64,000 nt of DNA from Polyangiaceae bacterium (GTDB taxonomy: Bacteria > Myxococcota_A > Polyangia > Polyangiales > Polyangiaceae), in contig JAQSWN010000051.1 in assembly GCA_029266615.1 (NCBI GenBank), positions 1 to 64,000 of the forward strand, read 5' to 3'. The notes below the pieces were generated by a model that did not search any database, was not told where the DNA came from, and worked only from the letters and a program-made list of their open reading frames with translations. Made by a program: the position numbers and the translations under genes. Shown in pieces: positions 9,451-22,545 of the stretch. How positions within the stretch are numbered: position 1 is the first letter of the stretch; the number at the start of each line of letters is the position of its first letter.

Positions 9451-10911
9451 CTATCCAGCCAGCTTCAGCGGCGAACCGAAGGAGCTGAGGTAACCCTGGA
9501 CCTCTGTCAGTCGGGACGTGGAGCAGTGTAGTGCTACGACGCCGTCCGGACGCAAGAGCACCATTCGACCAGGACCGAGCGCCTGATTCAATCGGTGCTC
9601 TCGTTGGGCGTTGTCCGCCTCGGTGAAAAGCACGCGGACAGCCGGCGCCTTCGCAGATTGCTCGAAGGCCTGGAGCTCGCGCCGGGCGCGAGACGAGTGG
9701 GAGGGGCCATCGGCCAACAGGACAAACCCCAGCGGCCAGTGCTGAGAATCCGCCGCCTGCCCGCTGGCGCGGAAGCACTCGGGCGCTGAAAGCCAGAACT
9801 TGCCGACGGCCCCGGAGCCGTCGCACTCGTGGATCAGCGCCGACGGCGCATAGCGCTGGCCGAGCCCAGAATACCGCAGCGGGAACGTCGAGCGAAACGC
9901 GTCCCTATTGGCAAGCGTCGGCAAGATCGGGGCCGCCAGCCCGAGATCTCGCCCGCCCGCCAGACGCATCGTGTAGTCGGTAGCTTCGGCGAGTTGACGG
10001 ATGAGCGGCAGCCGCTCTTGTTCATAGCTTTGGAGGACGAGCTCGGCGTCCCGGCAGCCGAGACACGCATACGCCAGCTTCCACGCAAGGTTCAGGGCGT
10101 CGCCAATGCCGGTGTTCATCCCGGTTCCACCGAGTGGAACGAACAGATGTGCGGCGTCACCGGCGATGAACAGCGACCCTCTCCTGAGTCGGTCGGCGAC
10201 GCCCCGGCACAGCTGCGCTCGAGACCGCCAGAATGGGCCGCGACGCAGGAAACCGGCCCCTACGATGACAAAGAGGGTCTGGTCGAACGCATGGTAGTAG
10301 ACCTGATCGCGAGGGGAGCCGTCGCCAAGCTCGAAGTCGCCAAGCACCATATGCGCGGCGTAGTCGGTCAGCTCGAGCTGGGCGCCTAGGCGCTCCCGCA
10401 CGACACTGTGGCGTCCCTCGCACCCGACCACGTAGCGATAGTGCCGGCGCTTGAGCTGCCCGCTGGAGTCCCGGAGCGTCACCTGCGCGGCGTCGCCGCG
10501 CTGTTCCACGTCGACCAGCTCCACGCCGCGTTCGACGGCCCCTCCGGACCTGACGAGCAACTCGTTCAGCTCCAACTCGGTCACGCTCTGCGGTTGCGTG
10601 ACGATGTTACGCACCAGGCCGGGAAGGTATCGGAAGTCCACCGCGGCGAGCCGCTGCGCGCGATGATTCACGTTGAGTCGGCGAATCCGACAACCGGAGC
10701 CGCCCAGGACGCCATACCCGCCCAAGATGGCGATGCCGTATTGCGACAGGTGATTGAGCGCCAGCGCCTTGCTGTCGGACGCGATCGTGAGCTTTGGATC
10801 GATGATGTCTGGCGCCAGGCCGTACCGGCGAAGTGCCCACGCCAAGGTCAGGCCCGTAGGACCCGCGCCGGCGATCAGAACTGATGCCGGTTCCGGAGCC
10901 ATGACACTCAT
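9451..10911 (-). CDS. FAD-dependent aromatic hydroxylase (PheA/TfdB type), shortened
   Basis: A 486-residue class A flavoprotein monooxygenase. The N-terminal VLIAGAGPTGLTLAWALRRYG is the FAD-binding GxGxxG fold, YVVGCEGRHSVVRERLG the second motif, and LFIAGDAAHLFVPLGGTGMN the GD motif contacting the ribityl chain. The C-terminal thioredoxin-like domain is present. The central substrate-binding region between VIVGAGFLRRG and GSLFIAGDAAH is much shorter than in typical members. The start at 10911 forms an ATGA overlap with the stop of the AfsA-like gene, so the two are probably translationally coupled. Hydroxylation of a phenolic or polyketide substrate is the likely role if the shortened protein folds. 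Confidence 0.8.
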   Translation of the reverse strand: MSVMAPEPASVLIAGAGPTGLTLAWALRRYGLAPDIIDPKLTIASDSKALALNHLSQYGIAILGGYGVLGGSGCRIRRLNVNHRAQRLAAVDFRYLPGLVRNIVTQPQSVTELELNELLVRSGGAVERGVELVDVEQRGDAAQVTLRDSSGQLKRRHYRYVVGCEGRHSVVRERLGAQLELTDYAAHMVLGDFELGDGSPRDQVYYHAFDQTLFVIVGAGFLRRGPFWRSRAQLCRGVADRLRRGSLFIAGDAAHLFVPLGGTGMNTGIGDALNLAWKLAYACLGCRDAELVLQSYEQERLPLIRQLAEATDYTMRLAGGRDLGLAAPILPTLANRDAFRSTFPLRYSGLGQRYAPSALIHECDGSGAVGKFWLSAPECFRASGQAADSQHWPLGFVLLADGPSHSSRARRELQAFEQSAKAPAVRVLFTEADNAQREHRLNQALGPGRMVLLRPDGVVALHCSTSRLTEVQGYLSSFGSPLKLAG

Positions 10912-11654
10912 GCTAGCTTGGCGAGCTCTAAAAGCTCTGAGCACTGCGTCATGACCTGAGACGCCGTCTGACGAGCACGTCGGCCTTCGAGACGTGTGCT
11001 GATGGAAGGATCCAGAAGCGTCAACACCATGCTCTGTTCCGCTACGACGATGTCTCCTTGGGTCGAGCGGATCATGAACGAAAGCGGCACCTGCGAGGAG
11101 GTCGCGTCGCCGGTCGCTTCCACCGTGACCGTCAAGGTCGTAGGTACGGGAAACGCGAACGCCAAGAAACTGACCTCACACCGCGCCCAAGCGATCGACC
11201 ACCGCTTGCCCTCGGGGTGTGGACATTCGCGTTCGATGACGGCAATGGTTGCCTGTCGAGCGGCTTCAATCATGACCATGCCGTTCACGTGTTGACCCGT
11301 GACGTGGTCCGCTAATCGATCCTGTTGCGGCTCGACCCGCAGCAGCATTCGATAGGTGCGTGTTGCGATTCGCTGAGGGGTGGTAATCAGAACGTAGCGT
11401 GGGTCACGCTTGTGAGTGAGCTCCGCCGGGCATGACTCTTCCGCATAGGCTAGACGTGGCGCCGAATGGAGCCTTGCTGCGGCTTGTGCCAGCTCGCTCA
11501 GCTGCTCCGCCGTGAGGCCCTGGCCACACACGAGCAGATGGCTCCCGTCGAGCGAGGGGAGCAGCTCCTGAGCTTGATCGTAGGTGATGGCCGCCGTCGT
11601 CTCGGCGAAGGCCCCGTAGCTGTTGCCTACCACCAGATGCACGTTATTCGACAC
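10908..11654 (-). CDS. AfsA-like hotdog protein
   Basis: A 248-residue protein starting at GTG (11654) with GGAG upstream. The segment DHVTGQHVNGMVMIEAARQA matches the A-factor biosynthesis (AfsA) hotdog domain, which in Streptomyces condenses a beta-ketoacyl thioester with dihydroxyacetone phosphate to start gamma-butyrolactone synthesis. AfsA usually has two such repeats; here one is clear and the N-terminal half is divergent. It heads the left arm and its ATGA overlap couples it to the flavin monooxygenase. Because it is cotranscribed with tailoring genes, it may serve the main product rather than a separate signal. Confidence 0.75.
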   Translation of the reverse strand: MSNNVHLVVGNSYGAFAETTAAITYDQAQELLPSLDGSHLLVCGQGLTAEQLSELAQAAARLHSAPRLAYAEESCPAELTHKRDPRYVLITTPQRIATRTYRMLLRVEPQQDRLADHVTGQHVNGMVMIEAARQATIAVIERECPHPEGKRWSIAWARCEVSFLAFAFPVPTTLTVTVEATGDATSSQVPLSFMIRSTQGDIVVAEQSMVLTLLDPSISTRLEGRRARQTASQVMTQCSELLELAKLA

Positions 11655-12404: not shown

Positions 12405-13163
12405 ATGAAAGACCAGACGATCGCAGACGATGTATTGGCGGGCACCAAGCAGTTCGTCCAGGGGCCTGAGGAGTTCGCCCGAATGCCGGCGGAGTACCAC
12501 GACTTGGTCGTCCGGCAGATGATGGTTCATACCGAGGGCGAGTTGTCCGGAGCAGATGACTACCTCGACTTGTTCTATCCGATGACCAACTCGGCGTACG
12601 AGAAGAAGGTCTGCTGCGAGCGCGGCGCCGAGGAGATGGATCACTACCGGAAAGGTGCCGCCATCCTGAGCGCACTCGGTCACGACACGGCGTTTATGAT
12701 CGACACACCGCTGCAGGAGCGCAACCTGTACGCGACCGAGGCGGTCAAGAACGTCGAGACGTGGGTGGAGCGAGGGTTCTTCTCCTTCCTGGGCGAAGCG
12801 GCGGTGTTCGAAGTGCTCAAGGAGATGACCGAGAGCAGCTACAAACCTATCGCGGACATGTGCCCCTCCGTTATCGAGGAAGAGCGCGTTCACGTCGCCC
12901 ATGGCAAGCGCATCATTCGGGACCTCTGTCGCACCGAGAAGGGCCTCGCCGAAGCGCAGCATGCGTTGCTGCGGTGGTGGCCAGTCGCGCTCGATACCTT
13001 CGGGACGAGCAATTCGAAACGCTCGGCCGCCTACGTGAAGTGGCGCTTGCGCAAATTTTCGAACGAGGAGGCCCGGCGCCGGTTTATCGAGCTGACCGCG
13101 CCGAAGCTGCAGAGCCTAGGACTCGAGGTCCCCGGCCACGAATCGAATCGCAAATTTCTTTGA
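12405..13163 (+). CDS. PaaA-like ferritin-fold diiron oxygenase 1
   Basis: A 252-residue ferritin-like protein resembling phenylacetyl-CoA epoxidase subunit PaaA: RWWPVALDTFG, the KWRLRKFSNEEARRRFIE region and the APKLQSLGLEVP tail line up with PaaA. Candidate diiron ligands are Glu44 or Glu46, Glu77-x-x-His80, Glu131 and Glu160-x-x-His163, so the site looks complete. The ATG at 12405 is chosen by alignment with its paralogue at 14432. No PaaB, C, D or E genes are nearby, so it is not a phenylacetate degradation operon. It probably does an O2-dependent hydroxylation, epoxidation or desaturation on a CoA- or ACP-linked substrate. Confidence 0.8.
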   Translation: MKDQTIADDVLAGTKQFVQGPEEFARMPAEYHDLVVRQMMVHTEGELSGADDYLDLFYPMTNSAYEKKVCCERGAEEMDHYRKGAAILSALGHDTAFMIDTPLQERNLYATEAVKNVETWVERGFFSFLGEAAVFEVLKEMTESSYKPIADMCPSVIEEERVHVAHGKRIIRDLCRTEKGLAEAQHALLRWWPVALDTFGTSNSKRSAAYVKWRLRKFSNEEARRRFIELTAPKLQSLGLEVPGHESNRKFL

Positions 13164-13241: not shown

Positions 13242-14390
13242 ATGCTTGTGCGTGAACAATTGGGTACAGCCGGGTTGACTGGAGCCGAGCAGGCGGTGCT
13301 ACGCGCGCTCGGTGGCGACCAGGACTACCTAGATCGGTACCGGGCCGTCACCAGGTTCTCTCGGAACGTCCGCTCGTCGGAGTATCTCCTGACGAACGCC
13401 TGCAACATCCGCTGCCGCGGTTGCTGGTTCTTCGAAAACGACTTCGACAAGACGACCAAGGAGCTCACGACGGAGCCACAGATACGTGAGTTCGTACGGC
13501 GTGAGCGAGAGCGTGGCATCAACTATGCCATCGTCATCGGGGGTGAACCAACGCTTGTCCCGAAGCGCGTCGCCGTCTTCGTCGAAGGGATGGACTACGT
13601 CACCATTTCCACCAACGGCCTCAAGCCGCTGCCGCTGCGCGGGTTCGAGCAGGTCGGCGTGCAGATTTCGCTGTTCGGGGGCGGAGCTCTCGACGACGAG
13701 CTTCGCGCGATCAAGGCAACAGGTGAGCGGTTCAACGGTCTATTCGATACCGCGTTGCGCAACTACCAAAACGACCCGCGCGCTTGCTTCGTCTACGCCA
13801 TCACCGAGGACGGCATTGGATTCATCGAGGAGAGCGTGCGCCGAATCCATGACAATGGAAATCGTGTCTCGTTCAACTTCTATAGCAAGTACGGTAGCGA
13901 CGACCCATTGCGTCTAGACAGCGCCACGCGCCTGGTCGACGCGGCGCTTCAGGTCAAGGCGCGCTACCCAGATACGGTGCTCAGTCACCCGTATTTCATC
14001 GAGACGCTCATTACCGGGCGCTCGCATTGGGGCGAGTTCGGCTACGACGTCTGCCCGAGCCTGAGCGTCGACAACCCCGTACACCTGGCGCGGCTCGCCA
14101 ATGGCAACCCGGTCCTCCCGAAGTTCAACGCTTGGGCGGCCGACTGCGAGACCGTCAACTTCTGCTGCACTTCGGGACACTGCAACGAGTGCCGGGATAG
14201 TCAGGCGATTCTGAGCTGGCTTCAGGTCAGCATGTACCGGTTCCGGACTACACCCGAGCTGTTCAAGACCTGGGTTGAAGTGGCGGAGAGCTACTGGAAG
14301 CAGTTCCCGTGGGCGCTCGGACCACGAGCGGCCGCGCCAAGCCCGGGGGCCCGGCGTGCGCTGCCTCTGGCCCCGAAGACACTCGCATAG
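13242..14390 (+). CDS. Radical SAM enzyme with C-terminal cysteine cluster
   Basis: A 382-residue radical SAM protein. TNACNIRCRGCWFF carries the CxxxCxxC [4Fe-4S] ligands (Cys54, Cys58, Cys61) and VIGGEPTLV is the GGEP motif that binds the SAM amino group. The C-terminal third has many cysteines (ADCETVNFCCTSGHCNECRD), suggesting an auxiliary cluster of SPASM or twitch type. The ATG at 13242 has a good GAGGAG upstream. It is sandwiched between two PaaA-like genes with short gaps. The reaction is unknown; I do not recognise a characterised subfamily. Confidence 0.85.
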   Translation: MLVREQLGTAGLTGAEQAVLRALGGDQDYLDRYRAVTRFSRNVRSSEYLLTNACNIRCRGCWFFENDFDKTTKELTTEPQIREFVRRERERGINYAIVIGGEPTLVPKRVAVFVEGMDYVTISTNGLKPLPLRGFEQVGVQISLFGGGALDDELRAIKATGERFNGLFDTALRNYQNDPRACFVYAITEDGIGFIEESVRRIHDNGNRVSFNFYSKYGSDDPLRLDSATRLVDAALQVKARYPDTVLSHPYFIETLITGRSHWGEFGYDVCPSLSVDNPVHLARLANGNPVLPKFNAWAADCETVNFCCTSGHCNECRDSQAILSWLQVSMYRFRTTPELFKTWVEVAESYWKQFPWALGPRAAAPSPGARRALPLAPKTLA

Positions 14391-14431: not shown

Positions 14432-15175
14432 GTGAATTCATATCCCGAGCCTTTGACGCCGAATTCCGTGGTTGGACCGGACGAATTCTTTCGGATGCCT
14501 GACGAGTACAAGGCGTTGCTGGTTCACCAGATGAAGGTGCATACCGAGGGTGAGGCTACCGGCGCTGACGACTATGCAAAGATCTTCTATCACCTGACCA
14601 AAGACCCGTACGAAAAGATGCTCTGTTGCAAGCTGGCGGCGGAGGAGATGAACCACCACATCATGGGTGTGGAGGTCTTGAAGGCGATCGATGTCGACGT
14701 CAGCTACATGGCTCACCTCGATATGCAGGACCGGAAGCTGTTCGATACGGAAGTTGTGAAGCGGATCGACACGTGGACCGAACGGGGCTTCTTCGGGTTC
14801 CTCTCCGAGGCGGCCGCGTACGCGCAGATCGAGGAGTTTGGTCACTCGAGCTACAAGCCGATTTCTGAGATGGCCGCGAGTATCCTACGGGATGAGAAGG
14901 GGCACATCGCGCATGGCTTCCGGATCATCCGCGACTTGTGCAAGACGGAAGAGGGTAAGGCAGAGGCCCAGGCCGCATTGACCCGCATGTGGCCGGCGAC
15001 CCTGGATCTGTTCGGGCGCAGTGACTCGAAGCGGTCGGCGGCGTACGTGCGTTGGGGGCTTCGGCGGTTGCGCAACGGCGATGCTCGCCAGCGCTACGCG
15101 GAGAGGACACGCCCCAAGTTGGAGAAGCTTGGATTGCACGCTCCCGACAACATGGCCAATCGCAAGTTCGTTTGA
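14432..15175 (+). CDS. PaaA-like ferritin-fold diiron oxygenase 2
   Basis: A 247-residue paralogue of the product of 12405-13163, similar along the whole length (shared VHTEGE, GADDY, SSYKPI, SDSKRSAAYV-type segments). The diiron ligand set also looks complete: Glu39 or Glu41, Glu72-x-x-His75, Glu126 and Glu155-x-x-His158. That differs from PaaA/PaaC, where PaaC has lost its metal site. It starts with GTG at 14432 after TAGGAGAG. It may form a heteromer with oxygenase 1 or act at a second position. A ferredoxin or reductase partner is not encoded in the cluster. Confidence 0.8.
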   Translation: MNSYPEPLTPNSVVGPDEFFRMPDEYKALLVHQMKVHTEGEATGADDYAKIFYHLTKDPYEKMLCCKLAAEEMNHHIMGVEVLKAIDVDVSYMAHLDMQDRKLFDTEVVKRIDTWTERGFFGFLSEAAAYAQIEEFGHSSYKPISEMAASILRDEKGHIAHGFRIIRDLCKTEEGKAEAQAALTRMWPATLDLFGRSDSKRSAAYVRWGLRRLRNGDARQRYAERTRPKLEKLGLHAPDNMANRKFV

Positions 15176-15197: not shown

Positions 15198-16163
15198 ATG
15201 CCTGGATCCGCGATGATGAGCGCTCGTGAAGCTATTTACCTGAGCAGCATCGAGTACGCTCTCGGAAGTGTGCTGCCGATGAGCCAGGCTCTTGCGGGAC
15301 AGGTTGGCCCTGAGCTCATGAGGAAGCTCGGCGATGGTGGGTTCTCGGGCGTGGCGGTTGCCGAGCGAGGTGCCGTCGAGCTCGCAGCGGCAGCGGCGGG
15401 CGCCGTCCTGACGCGAGGGAATATCGGTGCATCAGCGATCGACGCCGTGGTGTACGCGACCTGTAGCTTCTGGGGGGACGAGCAGGGGGAGGCGAATCGA
15501 GGCTGCCTTCAGTCGCAGCTGCTCGACCCTCTGGGGTTGGCCCACGCGCTCCTGTCGGGGGTGGCCCTGGCCGAGTCAGGAAATCTGGCCAGTGCGCTCC
15601 GAGTCGCATGCAACCTGGTGCGGAGCGGTGACGCCGAGACGGTCCTCCTCGTCACCGCGGATCGAGTGCCCGGGATCCCTGGTGAGTACCGAGCCATGCC
15701 CAACGCGACCGCGATCAACAGCGATGGGGCCGCGGCCTGTCTGATAACCAGAGAGCCACGGCACGGGTTCGAGGTCGAGCACATCGCCCAGCACGCCAAT
15801 CCGTGCATTCTGGAGAGGGTCAAAGGGGACGGCTTCGGAAAGTACTTGGACATCGTGGCGGGGTTGCGCGCCGCCGCTGGCGCGGTATTCCGCTCAACTG
15901 GTGCTTCACCTGACCAGTATCGGTGGCTGGTTACGAACAACTACAGCGTACCGACCATCTATGGCTTCGCCGAAGCGCTCGACGTGCGCCGCGAAAGGGT
16001 CTTTGTCGATAACGTCGCGCGTTTTGCACACGCTTTTGCGGCCGACGGACTCATCAACCTGGCCGACCTGCTGGCGGCGGCGGCGGCCCGGCGGGGGGAG
16101 CGGGTACTTGCACTATCGACTGGTCCTTTGACTTGGGGGGCGATCAGCTTGCGCCGATGCTGA
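15198..16163 (+). CDS. KASIII-like protein lacking the catalytic Cys (a)
   Basis: A 321-residue thiolase-fold protein of the FabH/KASIII group: IDAVVYATCSFW, SGDAETVLLVTADRV, INSDGAAACLI and DNVARFAHAFAADGLINLADLL follow the family pattern. The nucleophile position reads AESGNLASALRVA, with Ser127 aligned where Cys is expected. The His of the usual HQAN/HNVN motif is Asn247 (TNNYS). The third position keeps His in FAHAF. The start could instead be 15213 or 15216. It overlaps the next KASIII-like gene by 7 bp (ATGCTGA). It may be an acyltransferase, a structural partner, or an enzyme with a different mechanism. Confidence 0.75.
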   Translation: MPGSAMMSAREAIYLSSIEYALGSVLPMSQALAGQVGPELMRKLGDGGFSGVAVAERGAVELAAAAAGAVLTRGNIGASAIDAVVYATCSFWGDEQGEANRGCLQSQLLDPLGLAHALLSGVALAESGNLASALRVACNLVRSGDAETVLLVTADRVPGIPGEYRAMPNATAINSDGAAACLITREPRHGFEVEHIAQHANPCILERVKGDGFGKYLDIVAGLRAAAGAVFRSTGASPDQYRWLVTNNYSVPTIYGFAEALDVRRERVFVDNVARFAHAFAADGLINLADLLAAAAARRGERVLALSTGPLTWGAISLRRC

Positions 16164-17020
16164 AACAAGCGACTCGCCAATTGTATCTGACCGCCCTCGA
16201 AACGGCCATTGATCGGGGCCCTTCGGCGGACCCGCTGCAGGTCGCTGGGGTCGCGCTCGATCGGACGGTCGCGAGCGCAACGGCGCTGGTCGAAGAATCG
16301 ACGCTGCTGTTAGTCGCAGGATTCGCGTTCTCGGGACCGCGTCGGGCGCTGCCGAGGAGCGGGGCGCAGACAGCGGTCTTGGACAACGAGCTCGGTTCGA
16401 CGTTCGCGCGCGAGCTACTGCTGCGCCGTGGTCTTAATCGCCTTCAGCCACACGGCGTCCTGTTCGCAGAACATGCCCCGTTCGTGAATACGCTGCGCAT
16501 CGCGCGGAGCTTCGTCCTCGGTGAGGGCTTGCGGCACGTCCTCTGGGTCGTCGTGGACGCTGGCAAATGGGTTGTGCGGCCCCGAGAGTCCGCACGGAGC
16601 CACGATGGGGACCCGACGATCGGAGCCGCCGCGGGTCTGCTGACCTGCGAGGCCGAGAACGGCATCGGGATCCTCGGTATCAAGCGGGTGGCGGGTCCGA
16701 ATCCGAGCGCGCGCGCAGCGCTTGACGTGATCGCTGGACTAGGCGCCGAGCCCTGTGTCATCGGATTGCGGACTGCTCGTGGGGCCGGGCGGATCGGCGC
16801 CGCGCCCTCGTGGACTTCCGGGCTCGAGCACGGCTCGGTGGCCGAGCGTGTGAAGCGTCTGAACGCCTGGGCCGCGCCTACGGACCTCGAGTGCACACCT
16901 CTCGCGGCGGTATGCGAAGGCGCGGCCGACGTGCTGGAGGTAGCAACTTTCGAGCACCCGGACCGTTGGCGCGTTCGGGCTCGACAGCACTTCGTCGGCG
17001 ACGAGGGAGGTTCACGATGA
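16157..17020 (+). CDS. KASIII-like protein lacking the catalytic Cys (b)
   Basis: A 287-residue, more divergent thiolase-fold protein. GVLFAEHAPFVNTLRIARSFVLGEG aligns with the nucleophile helix of protein a, putting His106 at the Cys position; GEGLRHVLWVVVDAG and DPTIGAAAGLLTCE match the following strand and DGAGA-type region. The C-terminal half is short and lacks recognisable His/Asn motifs. The start at 16157 gives an ATGCTGA overlap like the one between later genes. The adjacent pair resembles heterodimeric arrangements such as PqsB/PqsC, but here neither subunit has the Cys. It ends in an ATGA overlap with the thiolase. Confidence 0.6.
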   Translation: MLKQATRQLYLTALETAIDRGPSADPLQVAGVALDRTVASATALVEESTLLLVAGFAFSGPRRALPRSGAQTAVLDNELGSTFARELLLRRGLNRLQPHGVLFAEHAPFVNTLRIARSFVLGEGLRHVLWVVVDAGKWVVRPRESARSHDGDPTIGAAAGLLTCEAENGIGILGIKRVAGPNPSARAALDVIAGLGAEPCVIGLRTARGAGRIGAAPSWTSGLEHGSVAERVKRLNAWAAPTDLECTPLAAVCEGAADVLEVATFEHPDRWRVRARQHFVGDEGGSR

Positions 17021-18252
17021 AGCGCGCCGTCATCATCGACGCGGTGCGCACGCCCATCACCAAGGGCTTTCAGGGTGAGTTGCGCGATATGCGCCCCGAT
17101 GACCTGGCCGCGTCGTGCATCGATGCCTTGCTCCAAAGGAACCCTGGTCTCGACCGGCAATGGATCGACGATTGCATCGTGGGCTGCGGTTTCCCCGAGG
17201 GAGCGCAGGGCATGAACCTGGGCAAGAACGTCGCTGTGGCCTCTGATCTCGGCGAGGGCGTCGCCGGCTGCACCGTTAGCCGCTACTGTGCTTCGGGGTT
17301 GGAGGCAATCGCCAACGCCGCTGGCAGGGTGGCGAGTGGCTACTCGGAGGCGGTCATTGCTGCTGGGGTCGAGTCTGTATCGCAGACACTGCGCACCGTG
17401 AACACCGAGCGTCTATTCAACCCTCGCATCGAGCAAAAATCGCCGGGCACATACGTGCGCATGAACCCAGCTGATCGAGTCACCCCTTTCTGGAAACGCG
17501 CGGTCCGTTGCATGGGCGAGACCGCGGAGATCCTGGCGGAGCGCGAGCGGATCGGCCGAGCGCAACAAGACGAGTTTGCCTGCCGAAGCCAGGCGCGTAC
17601 TGCGGCGGCGCAGCGATCTGAGCTCTTTGCCGACGAGATCATCGCGGTGCTGTTGGAACCTGGCTTGGACCTAGCGTCGAGGACTGCCAGCCAGCCGTTG
17701 ACTATCCGGCGCGACCTCTGCAATCGCCCGGACACGACCGAGGCCGTGCTCGCTGGCCTCGAGCCCTCGTTTCGCCCGAACGGTACCGTCACCGCGGGCA
17801 ACGCTGCACCGCCGTGCGATGGGGCAGCGGCTGCATTGATCGTTAGCGAAGACTTCGAGGCGCGTCATGCCCTCCCCAAGCTTGGCTACTTCTCGGGGTA
17901 CGCGGTGACAGCGTGTGAGCCGGAGCTGATGGGCAAGGGGCCGACGTTGGCAATCCCCAAGCTGCTGGCCCGGCACGGGCTCCGATTGGCCGACATCGAC
18001 CTGTTCGAGATCAACGAAGCGTTTGCGGCTCAGATGGTCTATTGTGAACGGGCTCTCAACCTGAACCCGGGGCGGGTGAACGTGAACGGAGGGGCGATCA
18101 GCGTCGGGCACCCCTTCGGCATGACCGGCGTGCGGCTCGTGGGTCATCTCCTACGAGAGCTGCGGCGCCGGGGCGGACGGCGTGGTGTGGTAGCGATGTG
18201 TACCGGCGGTGGGATCGGGGTCGCGGCATTGGTGGAGGCGGCGCAGTGCTGA
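17017..18252 (+). CDS. Thiolase family acyltransferase
   Basis: A 411-residue thiolase (acetyl-CoA acetyltransferase family). All active-site parts are present: Cys91 in TVSRYCASGLE, the EINEAFAAQ segment, the His in GGAISVGHPFGMTG and the second Cys in AMCTGGGIG. The ATG at 17017 overlaps the previous stop (ATGA) and begins MKRAVIIDAVRTPITKG, a canonical thiolase start. It could supply acetoacetyl-CoA or another beta-ketoacyl starter to the cluster, or cleave one. It is the only thiolase-fold protein of the three neighbours with an intact active site. Confidence 0.85.
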   Translation: MKRAVIIDAVRTPITKGFQGELRDMRPDDLAASCIDALLQRNPGLDRQWIDDCIVGCGFPEGAQGMNLGKNVAVASDLGEGVAGCTVSRYCASGLEAIANAAGRVASGYSEAVIAAGVESVSQTLRTVNTERLFNPRIEQKSPGTYVRMNPADRVTPFWKRAVRCMGETAEILAERERIGRAQQDEFACRSQARTAAAQRSELFADEIIAVLLEPGLDLASRTASQPLTIRRDLCNRPDTTEAVLAGLEPSFRPNGTVTAGNAAPPCDGAAAALIVSEDFEARHALPKLGYFSGYAVTACEPELMGKGPTLAIPKLLARHGLRLADIDLFEINEAFAAQMVYCERALNLNPGRVNVNGGAISVGHPFGMTGVRLVGHLLRELRRRGGRRGVVAMCTGGGIGVAALVEAAQC

Positions 18253-18958: not shown

Positions 18959-19198
18959 ATGCCGATCGAAGAACGCATCAAGACACTTATCATCGAACAG
19001 CTTCGGGTTGGCGGCGAAGACGTCGAGCGCGACGCCACGTTCGCGGATCTCGGGGCCGACTCTCTGGACCTGGCGGAGCTCCTCATGTGCTTCGAACAAA
19101 CTTTTGGGGTCCGGATTCCACCGGATTCCGCGCGTGAGCTGCGCTCAGTGGGCAGCGCCATTGATTATATAGTGGGCGCGACCTCGGATGAGCGCTGA
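18959..19198 (+). CDS. Acyl carrier protein 1
   Basis: A 79-residue ACP. LGADSLDLAELLMCFEQTFG contains the phosphopantetheine-attachment Ser35 in the DSLD motif. The ATG at 18959 follows AAGGAG. Its 3' end overlaps the KS gene by 11 bp, so ACP and KS are probably made together and work as a pair. No phosphopantetheinyl transferase is encoded in the window. Confidence 0.9.
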   Translation: MPIEERIKTLIIEQLRVGGEDVERDATFADLGADSLDLAELLMCFEQTFGVRIPPDSARELRSVGSAIDYIVGATSDER

Positions 19199-20483
19199 AC
19201 GCAAGGAGCCGAAAGCGGGCGTGCCTCGTCGACCGCGTGGTGGTCGACGGGTCGTCGTGACCGGCCTAGGTTGCATTTCGCCCGTCGGACTGGACGCTGC
19301 CGCCAGCTTCGGGCGTCTGCTCGAGGGTAGATCGGGCGTCCGCCCGATCTCGCATTTCGACGCAAGTACGTTCGATTGTCGCATCGCGGGCGAGGTCGAC
19401 GGCTTCGACCCAGCCAACTATGGCATCGGGGTCAAGGACGCCCGGCGAATGGATACGTTCGCGCAGTTCGCGTGTGCCGCGGCCAAGATGGCCCTCGACG
19501 ACGCAGGCATCGACCTGTCGCGGGCGCCGCACGACCGCATCGGCGTCTCCATCGGCACGGGGGTCGGTGGCCTTCAGGTTATTGAGAAGCAGCAGGAGCG
19601 TCTGCTCAAACGCGGGCCGCGCGCGGTTAGCCCCTTTCTCATCCCGATGATGTTGGGGAACCTAGCCTCGGGGCATGTCGCGATCCGTCATGGTCTAAGA
19701 GGGCCGAACCTGCATGTGTCGACCGCTTGCGCCACCGGCACGCAGGCCATCGCTGATGCCGGAGCAACCATCGAACGCGGCGACGCCGACGTCATGTTGG
19801 CGGGGGGAGCAGAGGCCGCGATTACGCCGCTACTGGTGAGTGGGTTCAGCGCAGCTGGGGCCTTGTGCACGAGTAATGCAGACCCGGCTGGTGCCAGCCG
19901 TCCTTTCGACCGAAGCCGAACAGGCTTCGTCATGGGCGAGGGCGCAGGCGTGCTCGTACTCGAGGATGAGGAGTTTGCCCGTCGGCGTGGCGCCGCGATC
20001 CTGGCGGAGCTTACGGGTTACGGGGTCTCGAGCGACGCGCACCATGTCACGGCCCCTGAGGAGGGAGGGCAAGGAGCTCAGCTGGCCATGCGGATGGCGC
20101 TGGCTCGTGCCGAGCTCGCTTCCGAGCAGATCGACTACGTTAACGCGCACGGAACGGGTACCGTCCTTGGAGATATAGCCGAAGCGCGAGCGGTCAAGCA
20201 GGTGTTCAAGGAGCATGCGACCAGCGGGGGTCTGTGGCTCTCCGCGACCAAGTCGATGACGGGACACTTGCTCGGCGCCGCGGGCGCCGTGGAGGCCGTC
20301 ATCTGCGTCCAGTCAATTCGACACGGGAAGGTGCATCCGACCATCAATCTGAACGACCCAGATCCGGAGTGTGACCTCGACTTTGTCCCGAAGGAAGCTC
20401 GCGACCGGCGGCTGCAGGCGGTCATGTCCAACTCGTTCGGCTTTGGTGGCACCAACGCAACGCTCATCTTCCAGACGTATTGA
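19188..20483 (+). CDS. FabF-type beta-ketoacyl-ACP synthase (KASII)
   Basis: A 431-residue KASII-type condensing enzyme with an intact triad: Cys181 in HVSTACATGTQ, His319 in VNAHGTGTVLGD and His358 in KSMTGHLLGAAGA, plus Lys353 and the C-terminal NSFGFGGTNA. It carries an extra N-terminal stretch of about 18 residues before RVVVTGLGC. No second KS or chain-length factor is nearby, so it is not a classical type II PKS minimal set. It probably extends an acyl chain on ACP 1 by malonyl units from primary metabolism. Confidence 0.9.
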   Translation: MSAERKEPKAGVPRRPRGGRRVVVTGLGCISPVGLDAAASFGRLLEGRSGVRPISHFDASTFDCRIAGEVDGFDPANYGIGVKDARRMDTFAQFACAAAKMALDDAGIDLSRAPHDRIGVSIGTGVGGLQVIEKQQERLLKRGPRAVSPFLIPMMLGNLASGHVAIRHGLRGPNLHVSTACATGTQAIADAGATIERGDADVMLAGGAEAAITPLLVSGFSAAGALCTSNADPAGASRPFDRSRTGFVMGEGAGVLVLEDEEFARRRGAAILAELTGYGVSSDAHHVTAPEEGGQGAQLAMRMALARAELASEQIDYVNAHGTGTVLGDIAEARAVKQVFKEHATSGGLWLSATKSMTGHLLGAAGAVEAVICVQSIRHGKVHPTINLNDPDPECDLDFVPKEARDRRLQAVMSNSFGFGGTNATLIFQTY

Positions 20484-20501: not shown

Positions 20502-21698
20502 ATGCAGATTACCGAAGCCTTCCTCCAAGATCCATATCCCACGTATGCTCGCATGCGCGAGGGGGCCGCCGCGCACTGGTCGGACGCCAACGGTGGCACC
20601 TGGTTCATTCCTCGCTACGCAGATGTCTGCGCTGGCTTTCTCGACGTGCGGCTCTCTTCGGGACGAAAGGCTGATGCTGCTGCCGATCAGTTTCCCAAGG
20701 AAGCGCGTCCCGAATTCGAGCCCTCGTTGCGCGTGATGCGGGAGTGGCTCGTCTTGCTGGATCCTCCCAAGCATACGCAGCTGCGCAAGCTCATGAACAA
20801 GGGATTTGTCAAAGACGTGATGGATAACCTTCGGCCACGCGTGCAGCAGGTCACTGGCCAGCTGTTGGAACGCGCGGCTGCCGAAGGTCGAGTGAACTTC
20901 GTCGAGGCGCTAGCCCGTCCGCTCCCCGCTCAAATCATTTGCGATTTGCTCGGAGTCGAGCACGACGTCCAGGCAGATTTCATTCGATGGTCCGAGGACA
21001 TCGTCTCCTTCGGCGGCAGCCTCAAACCAAGCGTTGAGCTGTTCCGGGCCGCACAGCACGCCGTGCTCAGCATGTTGGACTATTTCGCCAAGCTAGTGCC
21101 TGAACGGAAGCGTCGCATGGGCGACGATATGGTCAGCCTTCTCCTTCGAGCGGAAGAGGCGGACGTGGTGACGTCAGAACAGGTGCTAGCCAACTGCATT
21201 CAGCTCATCTTTGCCGGCAACGAAACTACGCGCAATCTGATCGCCAACGGCATGCATGTCCTACTTACTCGTCCCGAAGCCATGCAGAGCCTGCGCGACC
21301 ACCCCGAGCTGCTGCCGAACGCCGCGCTCGAGATGCTGCGGTTCGAGAGCCCGCTCCAGCTAATCCGACGCGTGGTGGACGTCGACATGCACTGGTGTGG
21401 CGTTCACATGCGAGCGGGACAGGGACTGATCCTGATGACGGGATCAGCCAACCGCGACTCGGCTGCTTTCCCGGATCCCGACAAGTTCGACCTGAGGCGG
21501 GGCGCTCCGAAACACGTGGCCTATGGTCACGGGATCCATCGTTGTATCGGTGCAGTGCTCGCGACGATGGAGACGGAGATCGCGTTGGGCTCCGTGTTGC
21601 GTCGCTTCCGGCACATCGAGCCCGACGCCGCAACGCCGGGGCGCCTGACGAATCCGATGTTGCGCGGCTTTTCAGAGCTCCTTGTGGAGCTGCGCTGA
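20502..21698 (+). CDS. Cytochrome P450
   Basis: A 398-residue soluble bacterial P450. The I-helix oxygen-activation motif is FAGNETTRN (238-242), ExxR is EMLR (277-280), and the haem ligand is Cys348 in YGHGIHRCIGA. Loops such as LLDPPKHTQLRKLMNKGF are typical of CYP107-like secondary-metabolism enzymes. GGAG precedes the ATG and the gap to the KS is 18 bp. It probably hydroxylates or couples the cluster product; redox partners are not encoded nearby. Confidence 0.9.
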   Translation: MQITEAFLQDPYPTYARMREGAAAHWSDANGGTWFIPRYADVCAGFLDVRLSSGRKADAAADQFPKEARPEFEPSLRVMREWLVLLDPPKHTQLRKLMNKGFVKDVMDNLRPRVQQVTGQLLERAAAEGRVNFVEALARPLPAQIICDLLGVEHDVQADFIRWSEDIVSFGGSLKPSVELFRAAQHAVLSMLDYFAKLVPERKRRMGDDMVSLLLRAEEADVVTSEQVLANCIQLIFAGNETTRNLIANGMHVLLTRPEAMQSLRDHPELLPNAALEMLRFESPLQLIRRVVDVDMHWCGVHMRAGQGLILMTGSANRDSAAFPDPDKFDLRRGAPKHVAYGHGIHRCIGAVLATMETEIALGSVLRRFRHIEPDAATPGRLTNPMLRGFSELLVELR

Positions 21699-21704
21699 CG
21701 CGCA

Positions 21705-22064
21705 TCAGCCCGTCGAACAGCGGTAGTGCGCAAAGACCTTCTCGATCTTTCCATGCTGATCGAGGTGCATCACCTCTGCGACGAGCCGCCGTCCGGCTCC
21801 CCAGAAGAGGAGCGTCACGCTCGAAACACAACTGAACGTATCGACGAGCTCGAAGTGCAGGTCGGGGTACTTCTCGAGACCTTTAGCGAAGTAGGCGCGG
21901 AGCGCGTCGCGGCCGCGTACGACGGGCTCGCCCGTCAGGTTGCCGGCCAAGGGCGAGACCAGCTCGGCAGAGTGCGCGTAGAGCGCCATGATCGCGTCGA
22001 CATCGTGTGTATTCCAGGTGGCAACGTGCTTCTCGGCAAAGCGGATCGCGTCGGTCGGGTCCAC
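21705..22064 (-). CDS. SnoaL-like protein, antisense within the right arm
   Basis: A 119-residue SnoaL/NTF2-like protein: DAIRFAEKHVATWNTHDVDAIMALYAHSAELVSPLAG followed by VVRGRDALRAYFAKGLEKYPDLHFEL. It starts at GTG 22064, which has GAGGAG upstream; longer ORF readings add low-complexity sequence. It is the only minus gene in the right arm and converges with the P450 gene with 6 bp between stops. It may be a polyketide cyclase-like or isomerase enzyme of the cluster, a second one beside 11867-12247. Confidence 0.75.
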   Translation of the reverse strand: MDPTDAIRFAEKHVATWNTHDVDAIMALYAHSAELVSPLAGNLTGEPVVRGRDALRAYFAKGLEKYPDLHFELVDTFSCVSSVTLLFWGAGRRLVAEVMHLDQHGKIEKVFAHYRCSTG

Positions 22065-22278
22065 AGCGCTTCTCCTCGGTCGGGTTCGGGTCAGCAGTGT
22101 CGAGGTGCGCGTAGGCGCTCGACGTGTGAATGCTAAGCGGTTGTTGCCAAGCCCGCAACGGTCGCCTCTGAGCGCCCGAAAGCGAGAGAGCGGGCCAGCT
22201 CGGGAACGGGGACGTTTCGTCCCCTGGTAGGTGCCTTCCCGCCCGGCTACAGACCACCCTGCACAAGTGAGGTTATCC

Positions 22279-22545
22279 GTGGTTGGACGAACACTGGCTG
22301 AAACCGAAGCTCGCGTCATAGAGATCATCATGAAGGCTTCTCTGGGGGCGGCTAACGCTGTGCCGGTCGAGTCGCAGCGCGACCTGCGTGACGAGCTGGG
22401 GCTAGATTCCAACGTGCTGATGTCCATTGCCTTCCGTCTCGAGAAGGAATTCGACGTCGACATCACCGCTCACGCGGACGAACTGGCGGCCTTGCGCACG
22501 GTAGGCGACGTGGCTCGTTTCTTTCACCAGGTCGGGGCGAACTGA
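22279..22545 (+). CDS. Acyl carrier protein 2
   Basis: An 88-residue carrier protein from GTG 22279 (GAGG upstream). RDELGLDSNVLMSIAFRLEKEFDVDI holds the candidate phosphopantetheine Ser44, although the usual DSLxxV is DSNVLM. It lies 40 bp upstream of the condensation-type gene, which suggests that it carries the acyl group that enzyme transfers. Confidence 0.8.
   Translation: MVGRTLAETEARVIEIIMKASLGAANAVPVESQRDLRDELGLDSNVLMSIAFRLEKEFDVDITAHADELAALRTVGDVARFFHQVGAN

Follow-up and report, generated by a model that had tools for sequence, protein, structure and literature searches.

A predicted serine-type acyltransferase of the KASIII fold and its degenerate ketosynthase neighbour in a Polyangiaceae gene cluster

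We describe a pair of overlapping genes, KSa and KSb, in a stretch of 64,000 nucleotides from a Polyangiaceae contig (JAQSWN010000051.1, assembly GCA_029266615.1), referred to below as the window. According to our analysis of sequences and predicted structures, KSa is, on balance, probably an acyltransferase that works through an acyl-serine intermediate, with KSb as a non-catalytic partner in a mixed dimer. The two genes are the following:

15198..16163, forward strand: KSa, KASIII-fold protein of 321 aa, predicted Ser-type acyltransferase (PF08541/PF08545, AF2 model, nearest solved structures)
16157..17020, forward strand: KSb, degenerate KASIII-like protein of 287 aa with its ATG at 16157, predicted non-catalytic partner (hhalign, shuffles, AF2)

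Both reading frames are intact, with no internal stops and a coding-type codon composition, the GC content being 0.74 at the third position against 0.52-0.55 at the second in KSa as well as in KSb. The original prediction, made from the DNA letters, spoke of a KASIII-like pair overlapping by 7 bp, and both statements hold: KSb starts at the ATG at 16157 and KSa ends at 16163, and the nucleophile-helix motifs quoted for the two proteins are present as they were given. KSa is recognised by Pfam, at low scores (ACP_syn_III_C 6e-9, ACP_syn_III 1e-7). KSb has no family match in Pfam, NCBIfam or PHROGs, and is linked to the KSa family by hhalign (P=95.5%, E 1.5e-8; the 97 aligned columns take in the nucleophile helix) and to KSa itself by a pairwise score 7.8 SD over shuffled sequences, a value reached by 0 of 1000 shuffles.

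The AF2 model of KSa (pLDDT 86.7, pTM 0.88) has as its top structural neighbours NatS (PDB 7VYU) with the highest Z of 35.8, ChlB3 (35.0), DpsC (34.5), an Aquifex FabH (34.1) and CerJ (33.8). Differences in Z of up to 1 were treated as ties, several of the top neighbours fall within this limit, and NatS is likened to KSa by fold only. Pfam, the model and the structure comparison agree in giving KSa the KASIII fold of the thiolase superfamily; since FabH enzymes come close behind the top neighbours, structure alone does not decide between an acyltransferase and a synthase. The positions of KSa that bear on this choice are:

15576..15578, forward strand: codon of Ser127, the nucleophile position, in the motif AESGN (alignment column)
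15936..15938, forward strand: codon of Asn247 in TNNY, equivalent of FabH His244 (alignment)
16029..16031, forward strand: codon of His278, equivalent of ChlB3 His296 and FabH Asn274 (alignments)
16044..16046, forward strand: codon of Asp283, equivalent of ChlB3 Asp301 (alignments)

The family alignment comprises four Ser-type and 17 Cys-type relatives, which makes 21 family members, together with two FabH sequences. Position 127 is Ser in all four members of the Ser clade, Cys in the 17 other relatives and Cys in both FabH rows, so that the predicted replacement of the nucleophile Cys by Ser is confirmed on a column which reads Cys in all 19 of these other rows. At position 247 KSa and about half of its relatives have Asn, the rest having Ala, Ser or Gly. 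Position 278 is His in 21 of 21 family members and Asn in FabH, and position 283, five residues further, is Asp in 21 of 21 and Ser or Thr in FabH. When a Cys-type relative was aligned directly with the ChlB3 chain, the columns of KSa His278 and Asp283 came to stand on His296 and Asp301 (ChlB3 numbers counted from the printed alignment). The catalytic residues of ChlB3 are Cys113-His296-Asp301, and a corresponding set is found in CerJ (PMC9573744).

Judged by these columns, the KSa lineage is built like ChlB3 and CerJ, with the putative catalytic His at the position of FabH Asn274 and the Asp five residues on. In place of the Cys-His-Asn set of FabH, KSa has Ser127, Asn247 and His278, and it retains a predicted Ser-His-Asp set whose His and Asp occupy the shifted, ChlB3/CerJ-like positions. 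It had also been proposed that the active-site His of this protein is Asn (TNNYS). Asn247 does stand at the FabH His244 position; the implied loss of the catalytic His does not follow, since His278 and Asp283 are invariant, and Asn247 is accordingly a trait of the lineage which leaves the Ser-His-Asp set intact. No intact Cys turned up at any other place in the active site. The suggestion of an unusual acyltransferase is in this way supported for KSa, as far as the arrangement of residues can indicate it.

ChlB3 (chlorothricin; PDB 7EQI), which transfers an acyl group between carriers, resembles KSa in fold, in the His and Asp columns and in belonging to a biosynthetic cluster with carrier proteins, but it has the Cys, is a reported self-dimer with no pseudo-KS companion reported, and shares 18% identity with KSa. 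CerJ (cervimycin malonyltransferase; PDB 3S3L) is similar in fold and follows the acyltransferase logic Cys-His-Asp, but its nucleophile is Cys116 and it acts on sugar hydroxyls. KSa shares with this type a His aligned with FabH Asn274 and the Asp about five residues on, and its nucleophile is Ser127 rather than Cys, for which reason we describe it as a Ser variant that would act like ChlB3 and CerJ and do not file it as a member.

A serine in the KASIII fold is not automatically functional and would need some compensation, as the C116S change in CerJ abolishes activity (PMC9573744). The distribution of the Ser-type proteins is of importance here. Relatives of KSa are few; plasmid records from Nostoc, Rhodococcus and Halioglobus carry some at 24-32% identity. 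Two motifs of the family, TNNY and HxxxAD, separated by 28 residues, were combined into a DNA pattern, which matched five loci in the genomes of 84,980 species: Calothrix, Nostoc, two Streptomyces and a Thermomonosporaceae MAG. Streptomyces zinciresistens (K42) and the MAG encode homologues 48-49% identical to KSa, and a further Streptomyces (G301) has one at about 40% in the same KSa-P450 arrangement, its P450 being 48.5% identical. Together with the window these make four Ser-type loci from two distant bacterial groups, whose sequences form one clade in the tree (support 100/99) with a private signature, Glu126 preceding the Ser and a loop PGEYRAMPN. Since the Ser is common to four loci of one clade in two distant groups, it looks selected rather than decayed, and a joint retention of Ser, His, Asp and the private loop would not be expected under decay. 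Taken with KSb, this may point to a minor, hitherto undescribed branch of enzymes that transfer acyl groups.

The same evidence bears on the reading in which neither protein is catalytic and the two serve as a scaffold or a platform for binding. The KASIII Cys is missing from both proteins, and the inactive CerJ mutant speaks in the same direction, but Ser127, His278 and Asp283 are all kept in the Ser clade across roughly 40-50% identity, as would be expected of a working site and not of a scaffold, and we regard this reading of the whole pair as very improbable.

In the window's own order KSa was absent from 183 genomes, seven of the same genus among them, with the exception of its own genome. 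It may follow that the cluster was recently gained or that the contig is foreign to the assembly, for which a contamination of 7% is estimated. In the class of the MAG, 394 genomes held no relative beyond the known Thermomonosporaceae one, and a scan of viral contigs with KSa gave no match. A search of 282 genomes from the same phylum gave weak FabH-like matches, of which one (G258), examined together with its neighbouring genes, proved to be an ordinary fabH operon. The genome of the window also encodes, at C444, a further divergent KASIII-like C-terminal domain with a weak Pfam score.

The surroundings of the pair are those of a biosynthetic cluster, in which we annotate the following genes:

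12405..13163, forward strand: PaaA-like diiron protein 1 (PF05138), with a homologue in two Streptomyces clusters that contain KSa
13242..14390, forward strand: radical SAM protein (PF04055) that goes with the PaaA-like genes, with 55% identical homologues in the two Streptomyces clusters
14432..15175, forward strand: PaaA-like diiron protein 2 (PF05138), 54% identical to protein 1
17017..18252, forward strand: thiolase of the acetyl-CoA acyltransferase type (TIGR01930, 399 bits), overlapping KSb by 4 bp
18959..19198, forward strand: acyl carrier protein 1 (PF00550)
19188..20483, forward strand: FabF-type ketosynthase (TIGR03150, 591 bits)
20502..21698, forward strand: P450, conserved companion of the Ser-type KSa (PF00067), 48-50% identical in three actinobacterial loci
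21705..22139, reverse strand: SnoaL-like protein, a companion (PF12680), with an about 50% identical homologue in two actinobacterial loci
22231..22545, forward strand: second carrier protein (PF00550)

The first PaaA-like gene, the radical SAM gene, the second PaaA-like gene, KSa, KSb, the thiolase, a transglutaminase-like gene, the ACP, FabF and the P450 run on one strand in tight packing, several of them overlapping the next gene by 4-11 bp. The P450 accompanies the Ser-type KSa in four of four loci, and a SnoaL-like gene lies close to KSa in S. zinciresistens and in the Thermomonosporaceae MAG. The radical SAM and PaaA-like proteins have counterparts in both Streptomyces clusters (55% and 41-45% identical, respectively), on the ground of which we consider these clusters distant versions of the one in the window; they additionally encode a Cys-type KASIII (KSc), an AMP-ligase, an OsmC-like protein and a PLP enzyme of Cys/Met metabolism. 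Three other Streptomyces loci, and a fourth much like them, encode two Cys-type KASIII-like proteins side by side close to large PKS-like genes, which recalls a ChlB3/ChlB6 pair. A PaaA-like and radical SAM pair, with a single PaaA, recurs in Alteromonas plasmids, Burkholderia stagnalis, Tistrella mobilis and the two Streptomyces. A record labelled Enterobacter hormaechei (NZ_OR497351.1) equals the Alteromonas plasmids in PaaA-like identity and E-value and is possibly mislabelled. A scan with the PaaA alignment gave no match, and no described function or cluster for the PaaA/radical-SAM pair was found in the open-licence literature. Elsewhere in the window (10908-11654, reverse strand) an AfsA-type hotdog protein lies beside an FAD monooxygenase, which suggests a branch or signal of the butenolide or gamma-butyrolactone-like kind.

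A Ser nucleophile, together with a set of genes for acyl chain assembly, brings to mind DpsC, the starter-unit KASIII of daunorubicin biosynthesis (PDB 4XS7, 5WGC), a condensing enzyme with a Ser-His-His set (PMC9573744) whose two His we take to lie at the FabH 244 and 274 positions. KSa could likewise load a starter on Ser127 and condense it with a malonyl-type extender; DpsC is among its closest structures (Z 34.5), and the cluster offers ACPs, a FabF and a thiolase. KSa differs from DpsC, however, in having Asn247 at the first His and, after the second, the additional Asp of the acyltransferase type, and the formation of C-C bonds is already covered by the FabF and the thiolase of the cluster. 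We hold such a condensing role to be unlikely and keep to an acyltransferase as the preferred reading of KSa.

The second protein of the pair requires a separate consideration. Its nucleophile position is encoded as follows:

16472..16474, forward strand: codon of KSb His106, at the nucleophile position (alignments), with Ala and Gly in two half-KS counterparts

The original prediction had placed a His at the nucleophile position of this protein, and His106 does lie on the same column as KSa Ser127. In the two Streptomyces clusters the apparent counterparts of KSb are half-KS proteins of 154 aa (S. zinciresistens) and 135 aa (Streptomyces G301), which comprise the N-terminal half only and are encoded directly after the P450, the latter separating them from KSa. 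As they carry Ala and Gly where KSb has His, His106 is not a conserved catalytic residue and gives no ground for a His-based catalyst in KSb. KSb is without about 30 residues near the N-terminus, the TNNY stretch and much of the catalytic C-terminal half. Its AF2 model (pLDDT 61) is confident solely in parts of the N-terminal half, which are thiolase-like, and the match to the thiolase superfamily is only partly independent, as the alignment behind the model included KSa relatives. The type III polyketide synthases which top its list of structures are alike in fold only. With either Streptomyces half-KS protein the score of KSb lies about 8 SD over shuffled sequences, and with a FabH 1.7 SD over them. 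From this similarity a KASIII ancestry is indicated for KSb, and it is best read as a pseudo-ketosynthase, a degenerate sister of KSa. An origin as a degraded Cys-type ketosynthase was rejected, the scores of KSb with KSa and with the half-KS proteins being higher than with KSc; the tree position of KSb is unusable, its branch being 4 changes per site long. A KSb match in another genome (G191) sits in a different kind of gene and was discarded. The scaffold that had been proposed as one role for the pair would suit KSb, considering its non-conserved nucleophile position and lost C-terminal catalytic core.

It may be argued that KSa works alone and that KSb is a decaying duplicate with no role in the reaction. 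In favour of this, KSb is short of catalytic residues and of a large part of the C-terminal domain, the residue at its nucleophile position varies among its counterparts, and the single-gene relatives in Nostoc, Rhodococcus and Halioglobus have no evident partner gene. Against this, the KSb frame is intact, has coding-type codon use and is coupled by overlaps to both its neighbours, and pseudo-KS halves have been retained near the Ser-type KSa in the two Streptomyces clusters; a pseudo-KS protein is thereby present in three of the four Ser-type loci, and in the fourth, the MAG, the contig ends inside the P450. We consider a solitary KSa rather unlikely and continue with KSb as a predicted partner.

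There is a precedent for such a couple. In the alkylquinolone synthase PqsBC, PqsB has none of the three catalytic residues and makes up a pseudo-twofold dimer with PqsC (PMC4807248). The two systems have in common adjacent genes and one KASIII-like subunit that carries catalytic residues beside one devoid of them, in our case KSb, and by analogy the division of labour between KSa and KSb may correspond to that between PqsC and PqsB. They differ in that PqsC condenses by means of a Cys-His dyad, which KSa does not have, and in that KSb is cut down and its Streptomyces counterparts are half proteins.

The multi-component acyltransferase PhlABC combines a KASIII-like subunit with a thiolase-like one and a small OB-fold (DUF35) one, whose genes lie together. 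A complex of this kind was considered for the window, where a KASIII-like gene and the thiolase are adjacent, and rejected, the OB-fold/DUF35 component having no Pfam match in the scanned neighbours.

The mechanism which we propose is as follows. KSa would accept an acyl group that a carrier protein presents as a thioester and bind it to Ser127 in an oxyester, His278 serving as the general base and Asp283 as the acid that orients it. The acyl group would then pass to a second acceptor, such as the other carrier protein of the cluster, a hydroxyl or an amine, and not to a malonyl carbanion; the two carrier proteins could serve as donor and acceptor, as with ChlB3. The catalytically dead KSb would replace the second KASIII subunit in a mixed dimer and may shape the acceptor entrance of KSa. 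No matching cluster for KASIII acyltransferases with a Ser nucleophile was found in the open-licence literature. We may even suggest, as a tentative possibility in which we place less trust than in the enzyme assignment itself, that a Ser-His-Asp acyltransferase of the KASIII fold with an obligate, inactive and cut-down ketosynthase, sometimes only half of one, represents a hitherto undescribed kind of heteromeric acyl-oxyester transferase.

If the proposal is true, the thioester intermediate of the ketosynthase fold has been naturally replaced by an oxyester while the His-Asp pair of the acyltransferases was kept. This natural change of Cys to Ser contrasts with CerJ, where the same change, engineered, kills the activity, and a comparison of the Ser clade with its Cys relatives, particularly at Glu126 and the PGEYRAMPN loop, could reveal what makes a serine workable. 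The surrounding cluster, with its two PaaA-like diiron proteins, radical SAM protein and P450, for which we found no characterisation, recurs in actinobacteria. The half-KS companion, again if the proposal is true, would show how far a dead subunit of the thiolase fold can shrink and yet persist.
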